Assembly: GCA_030747075.1 (NCBI GenBank)
Contig: JASLLL010000008.1
Span: forward strand, 1 to 64,000
Length of the DNA stretch: 64,000 nt
DNA from: Gemmatimonadota bacterium
GTDB taxonomy: Bacteria; ARS69
Direction of reading: 5' to 3'
The notes under the pieces were generated by a model that did not search any database, had not been told where the DNA came from, and saw nothing but the letters and a program-made list of their open reading frames with translations. Positions 22,144 through 58,502 of this stretch are shown here, one piece after another. The stretch's first letter is position 1, and each line of letters starts with the position of its first letter. The position numbers were made by a program, and so were the translations under genes.

Positions 22144-22241
22144 GGGAATGGGTAGGTTCTGGTGAACCTCGAGGACTTCAAATCCTTCCGTCGGGTGCTA
22201 AAACCATCCGAGGTGGGTTCGATTCCCACGCATTCCCGCCA
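22144..22241 (+). tRNA. selC: tRNA-Sec (TCA), selenocysteine tRNA
   Basis: A 98-nt tRNA with anticodon loop CTTCAAA, anticodon TCA, which reads UGA. Features of bacterial tRNA-Sec: an extended D stem (AGGTTC/GAACCT), a long variable arm (paired TCGG..TG / C..CCGA, 22191-22211), T stem GTGGG/CCCAC with TTCGATT loop, discriminator G as in E. coli selC, and encoded CCA (22239-22241). The acceptor 5' strand GGGAATG pairs with CATTCCC; the eighth pair expected in the 8-bp Sec acceptor would be G-G. It implies that the organism decodes UGA as selenocysteine, and a target gene is present at 42003-42605. Confidence 0.93.
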
Positions 22242-38993: not shown

Positions 38994-39335
38994 ATGGCCG
39001 AGTGCATCTTCTGCGAAATCGCCGCGGGGAACATCCCCTCCACGAAGCTCCACGAGGATGACCAGTGCGTGGCGTTTAAGGACATCGCTCCCGCCGCGCC
39101 GACGCATCTGCTGGTCATCCCCAGAGAGCACCTCGCCAGCCTGGACGACGCCGATGAAGAGCACGGGGCGCTCCTGGCGCGGATGCTTCTGGTTGCGAAA
39201 AGGCTCGCGGGGGAGCGCGGGCTGGACGAGGGGTACCGGGTCGTGATCAATCGCGGCGTCCACGGCGGGCAGACGGTGGATCACCTGCACATCCATGTGC
39301 TGGGCGGCCGCCCGATGACCTGGCCTCCGGGCTAG
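38994..39335 (+). CDS. HIT-family (HINT-like) nucleotide-binding protein
   Basis: A 113-aa protein with the HIT motif H-L-H-I-H-V-L-G-G near the C-terminus, and the N-terminal C-I-F-C-E-I-A-A-G and H-L-L-V-I-P typical of bacterial HinT. These are small purine-nucleoside phosphoramidases/AMP-lysine hydrolases. ATG 38994 follows AGGG; a TTG six bases earlier is possible. It starts 2 bp after rsmE. Its stop TAG shares the palindrome CTAG with the stop of the convergent Rrf2 gene. Confidence 0.92.
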   Translation: MAECIFCEIAAGNIPSTKLHEDDQCVAFKDIAPAAPTHLLVIPREHLASLDDADEEHGALLARMLLVAKRLAGERGLDEGYRVVINRGVHGGQTVDHLHIHVLGGRPMTWPPG

Positions 39336-39829
39336 TCCTCCGACGGCGGTTCCGGGACTCCCGGCTGGACGGACGCGGGCCGATCCCCGCCCTCCTCTGT
39401 GGGGGGCAGGTTGCGCTTCATTTCCATGGTGTCCGCCATGTCGGAAAGCGCGAGTTCCTCCACATTCCCGAGGAAGGTCTCCCGGAAGCGTTTCCAGATG
39501 TCGTGCATAGGGCAGTGGGCGTCGTCGCGGCATTCATCCAGCCCCACGACGCACCGGTTCCGGATGTTGTCGATCCCGTCGATGGCATCCACGATTTCGA
39601 CCACCCGCACTTCGTGGGGAGGCTTCGTCAGCAGGAACCCCCCTCCGGGACCTCTGAGCGCCCGCACCATACCCTTGTAGGTCAGTTGATTGAGGATCTT
39701 CGCAAGGAAGTGTCGGGGAATGCCCTCCGTCTCCGCGATGTCCTTCACCTGGACCGGGGCATCCTTCCCGTAGAGGGCCAGATGGGTCAGCGCCCGCAGC
39801 GCGTATTCACACGATGTGGAGAAGAACAT
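39332..39829 (-). CDS. Rrf2-family transcriptional regulator with Fe-S type cysteines
   Basis: A 165-aa regulator. It has an N-terminal winged helix (Y-A-L-R-A-L-T-H-L-A, recognition helix in I-P-R-H-F-L-A-K-I-L-N-Q-L) and the wing R-G-P-G-G-G-F-L-L. A three-Cys motif C-x6-C-x5-C at about residues 91-105 could hold a [2Fe-2S] or [4Fe-4S] cluster, as in IscR/NsrR/RsrR. The last 30 residues are acidic/Pro-rich. It would sense iron-sulfur status, redox or NO. It is divergent from the OPT transporter gene (216-bp gap holding a palindrome), which may be under its control. No isc/suf genes are nearby. Confidence 0.88.
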   Translation of the reverse strand: MFFSTSCEYALRALTHLALYGKDAPVQVKDIAETEGIPRHFLAKILNQLTYKGMVRALRGPGGGFLLTKPPHEVRVVEIVDAIDGIDNIRNRCVVGLDECRDDAHCPMHDIWKRFRETFLGNVEELALSDMADTMEMKRNLPPTEEGGDRPASVQPGVPEPPSED

Positions 39830-40045: not shown

Positions 40046-42001
40046 ATGCCCGAATCCCCCGCGCCCGAGAGCCGCACGCAGATGACTCTGCCGCCGGAGG
40101 CCTACGAGGAACTGCCGGAGGGAGCGTCCTTTCCTTCGGTCGTCCCGGCTTCGCAGTCGCCCCGGGAGTTCACCGCCAAGGCGGCACTCATCGGTATTCT
40201 CGTGGGGATTGTCTTCGGGACCGCGAACGCCTATCTGGGCCTGAAGGTGGGGCTGACGGTTTCGGCCAGCATCCCGGCCGCAGTGATTGGCGTCGCCGTG
40301 TTTGGTGTGCTCCGCCGGGGGACGATCCTGGAGACGAACATCGTCCAGACGATCGGCTCCGCCGGGGAGTCGCTGGCGGCGGGGGTGATCTTCACGCTGC
40401 CGGTGCTCTTTCTGTGGGGCCTGGCGCCCGGCTTCTGGCCGATCTTCCCGCTGGCGCTCCTGGGGGGGCTCCTGGGTGTTCTCTTCATGATCCCGCTGCG
40501 TCGGTATCTCATTGTGCGGGAGCACGGGCGGCTCACCTACCCGGAGGGGACGGCGTGCGCGGAGGTTCTGGTCGCGTCGCAGGCGGGCGGTTCGCAGGCG
40601 CGGCAGCTCTTCGCCGGAATGGGGGTCGGAGCGCTCTACATGGCCGCGACCAAGTTCCTTCGCCTGTGGCCGGAGGAGCCGGATGTTCAGATCCACGGCT
40701 CCGGGTACCGTACCTCCTTCGGCGGCAGCCTCTCCCCTGAACTGCTTGGCGTGGGGTTCATCATCGGGCCGAGGATCGCGGCGGTGATGCTGGCGGGCGG
40801 GGTGGTCGGGTGGGGAGTGCTGATCCCTCTCATCTACCTGTTTGGCGATAGCGTGAACGCGCCGGTCGCTCCCGAGACCACGGCCCTCATCCGCGACATG
40901 GGCCCCTTCGAGATCTGGAGCCGGTATCTGCGCTACATCGGCGCGGGCGGGGTGGCGTTCGGGGGTCTCTTTACGCTGGTGAAGTCCTCGCCGGTCATCG
41001 TTCGCAGCTTCCGGATGGCGGTCCAGAACCTCCGGTCCAGGGGATCGGGCGAGGTTCATGTCCCGCGCACGGAACGGGATCTTCCCATCACCTGGGTCGC
41101 GGCGGCCGCCGGTGCGATGGCGCTTCTGGCCGCGTTCCTCCCGCTGAAGGTACTGGGCGGGCATATCGGAATCGTGGCGGGCGTCTGCGTCGTGGTTTTC
41201 GGCTTCTTCTTCGTGACCGTCTCCTCGCGCATTGTCGGTCTGCTGGGATCTTCGTCGAACCCCATTTCCGGCATGACGATCGCCACCGTTTTGGTCTGTG
41301 CGCTGCTCTTCGGCGGGACCGCGATCGGACTCGACGCGAAGATCACCGTGCTGACGATCGGCTCCCTGGTGTGCATTGCCGCGGCGATCGCGGGCGACAC
41401 CTCGCAGGATCTGAAGACGGGACATCTCGTCGGGGCGACCCCCCGGAAGCAGCAGATCGGCGAAGTCATCGGCGTCGTGACCGCCGCGCTGGCGATGTCC
41501 ACCGTGCTGACGCTCTTCCGCGACGGGATTGTCTCGGGCGCGTTCAAGGCTCCCCAGGCGAACCTGATCCGGCTCGTGATCGACGGCGTGCTGGAGGGGA
41601 GTCTCCCGTGGGGACTCGTCTTCACCGGGATGTTCCTGGCGTTCTGCGTGGAGATCATGGGGCTGCCGACACTGGCCTTCGCCGTCGGGCTCTATCTTCC
41701 TGTGCATCTTGCGGTTCCGATCATCGCGGGGGGGCTCATCCGGCTGGTCGTGGAAAAGCGTTTCTCCGGGGAGGACCGTGCGGAGCGGCGCGAGCGGGGC
41801 GTCCTGTACTCATCGGGACTGATTGCCGGAGGTGCGCTGGTGGGCGTGCTGGCTGCGGGCTTCGCATTCAAGGAGTTCGTGCCTTTCCCGGGGCTGCATG
41901 AGCCAGCGCCCCATGTCTGGCACTGGGCGACGGCGGCGTTCCTCGGCATGGCCGCGACGCTTGCCGTGCCCGTGCTGCGGTCATCCAGGAAGGGGGGCTG
42001 A
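40046..42001 (+). CDS. OPT-family oligopeptide transporter
   Basis: A 651-aa protein with about fourteen hydrophobic segments, starting at ATG 40046 with AGGAGG upstream. The first membrane region has G-T-A-N-A-Y-L-G-L-K-V-G-L-T-V-S-A-S-I-P-A-A, the bacterial OPT signature, followed by N-I-V-Q-T-I-G-S-A-G-E-S. It is most like bacterial OPT proteins that import small peptides or metal chelates by proton symport. The selenoprotein gene starts 1 bp after its stop, suggesting co-expression, and the divergent Rrf2 gene may regulate both. Confidence 0.9.
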   Translation: MPESPAPESRTQMTLPPEAYEELPEGASFPSVVPASQSPREFTAKAALIGILVGIVFGTANAYLGLKVGLTVSASIPAAVIGVAVFGVLRRGTILETNIVQTIGSAGESLAAGVIFTLPVLFLWGLAPGFWPIFPLALLGGLLGVLFMIPLRRYLIVREHGRLTYPEGTACAEVLVASQAGGSQARQLFAGMGVGALYMAATKFLRLWPEEPDVQIHGSGYRTSFGGSLSPELLGVGFIIGPRIAAVMLAGGVVGWGVLIPLIYLFGDSVNAPVAPETTALIRDMGPFEIWSRYLRYIGAGGVAFGGLFTLVKSSPVIVRSFRMAVQNLRSRGSGEVHVPRTERDLPITWVAAAAGAMALLAAFLPLKVLGGHIGIVAGVCVVVFGFFFVTVSSRIVGLLGSSSNPISGMTIATVLVCALLFGGTAIGLDAKITVLTIGSLVCIAAAIAGDTSQDLKTGHLVGATPRKQQIGEVIGVVTAALAMSTVLTLFRDGIVSGAFKAPQANLIRLVIDGVLEGSLPWGLVFTGMFLAFCVEIMGLPTLAFAVGLYLPVHLAVPIIAGGLIRLVVEKRFSGEDRAERRERGVLYSSGLIAGGALVGVLAAGFAFKEFVPFPGLHEPAPHVWHWATAAFLGMAATLAVPVLRSSRKGG

Positions 42002-42002
42002 G

Positions 42003-42605
42003 ATGCCCTGGATCGCCCAGGTGGAGGATGACGAAGCGGCCGGTCTTCTGAAGAAGGAGTTCGACGACGCACGGCGCCGTTCCGGGCGCGTCTGGAACAT
42101 CGTCCGGATCATGAGCGCGAACCCCCGCGTGCTCTCCGCCAGCATTCGCCACTACGCGGCGATCATGCTCGGCTCGTCGCCGCTCTCGCGCGTCCGAAGG
42201 GAGATGCTCGCCACGGTGGTCGCGAGCGAAGTGGGCTGCCGGTACTGAACCCGCGCCCATGCACACGACCTCCGGGCAGAGGTCGCGAAGGAGGGAGTGG
42301 CGGAAGGCGAGGCGGAGCGACTTGCGCACGCGGTAGCGCGCGACTGGCGCGCGGCACCGCTTTCGGAGGCCGACCGGGCGCTGTGCGCTCATGCGGCGAA
42401 GCTCACGCACCACATGGCGGCGACGGGGCCCGAAGACCTTGACGCGCTGCGAGATGCCGGGTTCGACGATGTCGCCATCCACGACGCCACCCAGGTGATC
42501 GCGTACTTTCACTACATCACCCGGATCGCGGAGTCGCTGGGTGTGGAGCCGGAGAGCGAGATCCCCGCCTACGGAGAAACCACCGACACGCGTGACTCTC
42601 CGTGA
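42003..42605 (+). CDS. AhpD-like peroxidase-related selenoprotein (UGA = Sec at codon 82)
   Basis: One 201-codon frame runs from ATG 42003 to TGA 42603-42605 and is broken only by TGA at 42246-42248. Both halves match AhpD-like peroxidase-related proteins of the carboxymuconolactone decarboxylase superfamily. The first part has P-W-I-x-x-V, G-R-V-W-N-I and S-P-L-S-R-V-R-R-E-M-L-A-T-V-V-A. The second has A-L-C-A-H-A-A-K-L-T and I-H-D-A-T-Q-V-I-A-Y-F. The UGA replaces the second Cys of the family's C-x-x-C, giving C79-R-Y-U82 followed by His86 at the conserved spacing. Family members reduce peroxides through this redox pair. A SECIS-like hairpin follows the UGA, and selC is at 22144. The alternative, two decayed ORFs, is unlikely since both halves are fully conserved in style. 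Confidence 0.88.
42266..42285 (+). promoter_or_regulatory. Candidate bacterial SECIS element in the selenoprotein mRNA
   Basis: A perfect 7-bp stem CGACCTC (42266-42272) / GAGGTCG (42279-42285) with loop CGGGCA. The loop begins 24 nt after the UGA, inside the 16-37-nt window known for bacterial SECIS elements, and contains the G-rich apex expected for SelB recognition. Confidence 0.75.
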
Positions 42606-56795: not shown

Positions 56796-58502
56796 ATGCA
56801 AAAGCACTGGTCGGAACTTCGGGGTCTCGAGGACACAGCCGTCGTGCGCCTCGAAGAAGCGATCGGATGCGGCCCCGTTCTCGCTCGTGTGCTGGCCGGG
56901 CGCGGGATGATAGACCCGACGGATGCGGAGAGCTTCCTCCACCCCACGCTGGACACGCTTTCGTCACCCCTTGCTTTTGCCGGGGCCGAGGCCGCGATTG
57001 AGCGTCTCCTTGCTGCGGTAGAGAGCGGCGAGCGAATCCTCGTCTTCGGCGATTTCGATGTGGACGGCGTCACCGGAACTTCGCTGGCGTATCTGGGGCT
57101 CCGCGCCGTCGGCGCCAATGTCGACTGGCTCCTCCCGCGCCGCATGGACCACGGCTACGGCCTCTCCGAGCGTGTCCTCCCGGAGGTGTTGGCGCGGAAA
57201 CCCGGACTTCTTCTGACAGTGGACTGCGGGATTCGATCTGTTCAGGAAGTGGCGTCGCTTCGGGAATCGGGCGTGGATGTCGTGGTCACGGACCACCACG
57301 AAGCCGGCCCCGAGCTTCCTCCCGCGGTGGCCGTGGTGGACCCGAAGCAGCCTGGCTGTCCCTACCCGGACAAGAACCTCGCGGCCGTCGGCGTCGTGTA
57401 TCAGCTTCTTCGTGGACTGAACTCACGCACGGGCCACTTCACAGACCCGACCGCGGATCTGGACCTGGTGGCCCTCGGGACGGTGGCGGATGTGGTGCCG
57501 CTGGTTGGCGAGAACCGCGCGCTCGTTCGCGAAGGAATGCGCGTATTGAACCGTCGCGCGAAGGTCGGCGTTCATACGCTTCTTCAGGAGTCGGGGATCG
57601 AAGGTCAGGTGGAACCGTGGCACATTGCGTTCCTTCTCGGCCCGCGGATCAACGCGGCGGGTCGCCTGGGTGATGCATCGGACGCGGTTCGGCTCTTCAC
57701 CGCCGAAGACACGACGACGGCTGCGGACCTTGCCCGCAGTCTGGGCGAAGCCAACCGGGCGCGTCAGGACATCAGCCGGACGACGGTCGAGGACGCGCTG
57801 GCTGCCATTGATCGCGGGACGGCGGGAGATCAGCCGGACGGGATTGTTCTGGCATCCAACTCGTGGCACCCGGGGGTCCTGGGGATTGCCGCATCAAAGG
57901 TTGTCGAACGGCATTATCGACCGACCGTTCTCTTCTCCTTCGACGGATCAGATACCGGGCGCGGTTCCGCACGCTCCATCGCCGGCGTGGATGTTCATGC
58001 GGCGCTGGAGGAGTGCGCGGACCTGCTCGTGCAGTTCGGCGGGCACTCCATGGCCGCCGGGATGACCATTGACCGCGCGCACCTGTCGGACTTTCGCACG
58101 CGGTTTGCCGGGGCCATTGGTAGCCAGCTTACGGAGAAGAACTCGCGGCCCCTCTTGCGTATCGACACCGACCTGGAAGAAGCGAGCGTCACGCTGGACC
58201 TTGCCGAGGAACTGGATCGCATGGGGCCGTTCGGTCTCGGAAACCCGCGCCCGGTTTTTCTCATGCGAAATGTGGACCCGGTGGATCGGCGTGTGGTGGG
58301 CAAGGGGCACCTGAAGCTCCGCCTGTCCGACGGCGCCGAGGGTGGCCTGGAGTGCATCGGCTTCAATCTCGGAGAAGAAGTCTCCGCGCGGCCCTTTCCT
58401 CCCGGACGGGTGGATCTCGTCGGGACGGTCAATGTCAACGAGTGGAGAGGGCGCCGGACGCCGCAACTGCGCGTCGATGATTTCCGGGAGGCGACCCCGT
58501 GA
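56796..58502 (+). CDS. recJ: Single-stranded-DNA-specific 5'-3' exonuclease RecJ
   Basis: A 568-aa DHH-superfamily exonuclease. Motifs: F-G-D-F-D-V-D-G-V-T-G (motif I/II), T-V-D-C-G, V-T-D-H-H-E (DHH), P-K-Q-P-G-C-P-Y-P, A-L-G-T-V-A-D-V-V-P, G-P-R-I-N-A-A-G-R, and the DHHA1 motif G-G-H-S-M-A-A-G. The C-terminal OB-like domain (about 460-568) follows. It works in recombinational and mismatch repair with Mn2+. ATG 56796 has AGGAAG/GAGG sequence upstream. The stop overlaps rel (GTGA). Confidence 0.95.
   Translation: MQKHWSELRGLEDTAVVRLEEAIGCGPVLARVLAGRGMIDPTDAESFLHPTLDTLSSPLAFAGAEAAIERLLAAVESGERILVFGDFDVDGVTGTSLAYLGLRAVGANVDWLLPRRMDHGYGLSERVLPEVLARKPGLLLTVDCGIRSVQEVASLRESGVDVVVTDHHEAGPELPPAVAVVDPKQPGCPYPDKNLAAVGVVYQLLRGLNSRTGHFTDPTADLDLVALGTVADVVPLVGENRALVREGMRVLNRRAKVGVHTLLQESGIEGQVEPWHIAFLLGPRINAAGRLGDASDAVRLFTAEDTTTAADLARSLGEANRARQDISRTTVEDALAAIDRGTAGDQPDGIVLASNSWHPGVLGIAASKVVERHYRPTVLFSFDGSDTGRGSARSIAGVDVHAALEECADLLVQFGGHSMAAGMTIDRAHLSDFRTRFAGAIGSQLTEKNSRPLLRIDTDLEEASVTLDLAEELDRMGPFGLGNPRPVFLMRNVDPVDRRVVGKGHLKLRLSDGAEGGLECIGFNLGEEVSARPFPPGRVDLVGTVNVNEWRGRRTPQLRVDDFREATP

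Follow-up and report, generated by a model that had tools for sequence, protein, structure and literature searches.

A predicted selenocysteine-containing AhpD-like protein and its SECIS-like hairpin in a member of the Gemmatimonadota

The window analyzed here is a stretch of 64,000 nucleotides from a Gemmatimonadota bacterium (contig JASLLL010000008.1). On its plus strand, translation of positions 42003-42605 gives one frame whose sole interruption is the TGA at 42246-42248 and whose terminator is the TGA at 42603-42605. In a mechanical list of open reading frames, this gene appears as two pieces, one ending at 42248 and the other starting at 42297, just as the first-pass annotation of this DNA had predicted for standard gene callers. 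The features discussed below are as follows.

22144-22241, plus strand: selC, tRNA-Sec with anticodon UCA (ARAGORN; Rfam RF01852, 73 bits, cut-off 47)
39332-39829, minus strand: Rrf2-family regulator (113 bits), divergent to the OPT gene
40046-42001, plus strand: OPT-family transporter (TIGR00733, 392.8 bits), 1-nt gap to the AhpD-like gene
42003-42605, plus strand: predicted gene for a 200-aa AhpD-like selenoprotein with Sec at codon 82 (TIGR01926; 6k40; pLDDT 93.5)
42201-42203, plus strand: Glu67 codon, invariant in 23 sequences
42237-42260, plus strand: CRYUTRAH motif (C79, Y81, U82, H86), invariant residues at the PA0269 relay spacing
42246-42248, plus strand: UGA, putatively read as selenocysteine; same TGA column in 19/19 first-scan homologues, Cys in non-selenium homologues
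42266-42285, plus strand: SECIS-like hairpin CGACCTC-CGGGCA-GAGGTCG, within the bSECIS constraints, with pairing and covariation in relatives
L023:1495-2430 (genome contig C4, outside the window), minus strand: selD, with an in-frame TGA in HCAGUASKIG

The whole protein scores 120.7 bits against TIGR01926 (cut-off 81.8), and each half matches that family separately, which bears out the earlier claim that the residues on either side of the TGA belong to the same fold. By sequence, the PDB entry 6k40 is matched with E=3.5e-22, and 2oyo, 2pfx, 3c1l, and 2prr are the other solved relatives. The structure model, made with sequences from the window and from genome contigs only, is all-helical (pLDDT 93.5, pTM 0.89), with 6k40, a D. 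radiodurans AhpD-type protein, as its best fold match (TM 0.83, E=1.1e-10). The protein is thus modeled with confidence as an AhpD-like fold. It is the sole PF02627 match in the genome. The motif C79-R-Y-U82-T-R-A-H86 places the UGA at the second Cys of a C-x-x-C active site with His at +4 from Sec82, as first described from the letters alone, and 23 sequences agree without exception in E67, C79, Y81, U/C82, and H86.

Is the TGA a stop, a sequencing error, or a sense codon? Were it a true stop or an error, the downstream part would be dead, a pseudogene or natural truncation, and the two pieces returned by the ORF finder are what such a gene would give. The relatives argue strongly against this. 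In a first scan of GTDB genome contigs, 19 of 19 relatives, from Chloroflexota, Planctomycetota, Acidobacteriota, Gemmatimonadota, and Actinomycetota, have a TGA exactly at the codon-82 column, a recurrence in independent genomes that is not expected of sequencing errors. The alignment crosses codon 82 without a break, the column holds only Sec or Cys, and the homologues, far from ending before this codon, stay conserved beyond it. The downstream 107-116 codons are conserved like the upstream 81: amino-acid identity before and after codon 82 is, for instance, 60/65% to L002 and 57/58% to L027, and nucleotide changes fall mostly, and in excess, at third positions on both sides of the TGA. A pseudogene or truncation is, therefore, scarcely credible.

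In whole-genome searches, an in-frame TGA was found in 14 of 15 Chloroflexota matches and in all the Planctomycetota matches listed except one, the TGA being taken, for matches without a fetched locus, from the search tool's stop count, its position uninspected. Among the 36 fetched loci from these two phyla in which the motif was found by script, 35 carry U, the exception being L043 with Cys. Planctomycetota matches occur in 84 of 246 genomes. With a match in roughly one in three of the genomes sampled from that phylum, nearly always with the in-frame TGA, this is a common family. Within the Gemmatimonadota, where five genomes were searched, TGA-bearing matches are present in three others (G001, G003, and G004). 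Distant plasmid-borne homologues have Cys in the codon-82 column. For L055 and several other Planctomycetota matches, two TGAs were reported, either because the terminator lies within the match or as a second Sec.

The machinery for decoding UGA as Sec is complete in this genome. The first-pass annotation had placed selC in the window, and both ARAGORN and the Rfam tRNA-Sec score agree. The three protein genes that it left to be sought elsewhere in the genome are all present: selA (535.5 bits), selB (PF25461, 58.7 bits, in a 678-aa frame), and selD (363.9 bits). The last has an in-frame TGA within HCAGUASKIG, and SelD is probably a selenoprotein too. In the homologue genomes, selA was found in 18 of 19; G013 gave no selA match. 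It could be argued that UGA has been given another sense, such as Trp or Gly, throughout the genome. The in-frame TGA itself speaks for such a reading, and nothing further was found in its favor. Against it, both the OPT gene and the AhpD-like gene terminate at TGA, the Sec machinery is complete, and the column is Cys, not Trp or Gly, in non-selenium homologues. We regard reassignment as very improbable, and put the probability that 42003-42605 encodes a full-length, Sec-containing AhpD-like protein at about 0.96. The initial proposal of an AhpD-like C-x-x-U selenoprotein in a selenoprotein-making organism is thus supported by the alignment at codon 82, by selA, selB, and selD, and by homologues that run on past the codon.

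A composition scan for TGAs lying between coding-like frames did not pick up 42246-42248 itself. It did find one other in the window, at 57423-57425 on the minus strand, flanked by two long coding-like frames. No hairpin of at least 5 bp that satisfied the criteria was found there, and the signal could be a shadow of other coding.

The hairpin following the UGA has its first base 18 nt past that codon, and its 7-bp stem, noted in the first reading of this DNA, is indeed present. The bSECIS constraints, as quoted in PMC13188914, are a loop of 3-9 nt, a stem of 4-16 bp, a G in loop positions 1-2, a spacing of 16-37 nt, and an MFE of at most -7.5. The element at 42266-42285 falls within all of them, with a 6-nt loop, 7 bp, G at loop position 2 followed by another G, 24 nt from UGA to loop, and an energy, for the hairpin alone, of -10.4 kcal/mol. 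The 60-nt fold after the UGA contains the hairpin; the 42-nt stretch has an alternative fold at -14.6, below the -11.5 of the hairpin itself. Since hairpins as good follow 107 of the 1315 TGA trinucleotides of this GC-rich window (8.1%), a hairpin in one sequence is weak evidence, and we reject it as sufficient in itself.

The comparative evidence is strong. All six inner pairs form in 35 of 55 Sec-type relatives against 6.9 (sd 2.3) expected in synonymous recodings drawn from the codon usage of each gene, a count reached in none of 2000 runs, with the qualification that the homologues share ancestry and such simulation counts, like the shuffle counts below, are not true probabilities. Covariation (0.254) is above all 500 shuffles (0.150) and every slid version (0.04-0.11), in a set (n=28) chosen mostly for having the stem in the more frequent of two registers described below, so that this result is illustrative and the 55-gene recoding test the fairer one. 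Compensatory stem changes are found in GACTTC/GAAGTC (L058), GATTTC/GAAATC (L063), and GATCTC/GAGATC (L011 and L074), alongside amino-acid changes. Within the stem and loop, all 21 of 21 genes encode Leu by CTC and Arg by CGT or CGG, choices whose background frequencies are about 40% and 34%. As judged from these alignments, the hairpin region is under constraint at the RNA level across the relatives. The fixed TGA column, the equal conservation on its two sides, and the comparative pairing together mean that the arrangement is not due to chance.

The relatives do not all place the hairpin at the same distance from the UGA. In register A, that of most members, the window included, GACCTC pairs with GAGGTC, and the loop starts 24 nt after the UGA. 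In register B, that of a more distant set, ACGGAG pairs with CTCCGT, and the loop starts at 16 nt; it is fully paired in eight relatives (L018, L019, L039, L041, L042, L045, L046, and L057) against 0.5 expected, a post hoc count, as this register was spotted after inspection of the data. Neither register is fully paired in 12 of the 55 relatives. The two lie 8 nt apart and have in common the strongly conserved CTCCGT, which supplies the 5′ arm and loop in A and the 3′ arm in B, and some members have full pairing in one register and near-full pairing in the other. In the tree, five of the eight register-B sequences fall outside the large group that contains all register-A sequences, while L042 adjoins that group and L039 and L057 lie within it; given the well-supported branches, the B label must have changed three times or more. 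It is tempting to propose that, within this family, the UGA has stayed in place while the SECIS-like hairpin shifted by 8 nt, perhaps through intermediates with both hairpins, a proposal to which we give even odds. The two registers are possibly a new detail. In any case, the relatives assembled here, in which the hairpin is backed by a codon-aware test, can be used to test the mobility of bacterial SECIS elements relative to the UGA.

AhpD-like CxxU selenoproteins were first reported in 2005 from the Sargasso Sea, with 27 sequences (PMC1088965), then in 2008 from the Global Ocean Sampling (PMC2398784), and an "AhpD-like protein, TIGR01926, CxxU" is listed in a 2026 inventory (PMC13188914). 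These reports substantiate the earlier statement that the AhpD-like family has Sec members and, because AhpD-like TIGR01926 CxxU proteins stand in published selenoproteome lists, the present protein belongs to an already known kind. It shares with that kind the NCBI family, above the curated cut-off, the CxxU, and the type of downstream hairpin; the host lineage is new, and the likeness to this kind, whose reference sequence is MCB9421940.1, is judged from family, motif, and hairpin. The description of the gene as "unannotatable by default" was overstated, as a sister model that allows for Sec is already in NCBIfam: NF041238 (AhpD_rel_CFYUT, alkylhydroperoxidase-related (seleno)protein), with a similar C-x-Y-U-T motif and a related domain. 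With 50.6 bits against a cut-off of 175 for that 357-position model, our protein is a relative and not a member, and assignment to NF041238 was rejected. What most pipelines would give as two fragments is, then, very probably one selenoprotein gene, in a little-sampled phylum.

The Cys-type peroxidase-related enzymes (6k40, 2oyo, 2pfx, 3c1l, and 2prr) are alike in fold and length (TM about 0.8) at 24-35% identity, with Cys in place of Sec and a CxxC active site in those aligned. In PA0269 of P. aeruginosa, a proton relay is formed by Glu36, Cys48, Tyr50, Cys51, and His55 (PMC3141380); E67, C79, Y81, U82, and H86 have identical spacing, and PA0269 has Cys where our protein would have Sec. The same holds for M. 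tuberculosis AhpD, whose relay Glu, Cys, His/Tyr, Cys, His is also equally spaced and has Cys, and whose chain topology differs (PMC3141380).

We propose that SelB, with the selC tRNA-Sec, would decode the UGA at 42246-42248 as selenocysteine in vivo, guided by the hairpin starting 18 nt downstream, and that the product would be a full-length AhpD-like thiol/selenol oxidoreductase. Cys79 and Sec82 would form the redox pair, and protons would be relayed by Glu67, Tyr81, and His86; the pair would reduce a peroxide or a related oxidized substrate, and a thiol or dithiol of the cell would reduce the selenenylsulfide intermediate. The active site is the basis for inferring peroxidase activity, and peroxide, by analogy, is probably the substrate. 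A protein of the same fold with Sec inserted might, instead, act on another oxidized or halogenated substrate or as a disulfide-type adaptor. Function is here read from the active site only, the debrominase Bmp8 (6ohi) and sestrin are among the fold matches, and PA0269 itself is only weakly active (PMC3141380). Nonetheless, the closest matches, in sequence as in structure, all bear names such as peroxidase-related, antioxidant, or AhpD, and all five relay residues are intact. We consider a non-peroxidase role rather unlikely, and a peroxidase the better guess.

As to the neighborhood, the OPT gene ends at 42001, confirming the 1-bp spacing recorded earlier, and the two genes are likely co-transcribed. 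The suggestion that peroxide defense is thereby tied to peptide or metal uptake is unsupported: in 16 related loci, the stretches examined, some of which are short, contain no homologue of OPT, and linkage to OPT was rejected on this basis. The neighbors depend on the lineage: the gene is followed by a GNAT acetyltransferase in four Chloroflexota loci, two further loci have a 2-hydroxyacid dehydrogenase, and TauE/SafE adjoins L027. A promoter scan around the AhpD-like gene found nothing. Given the divergent Rrf2-family regulator, redox control of the OPT/AhpD-like unit is possible.
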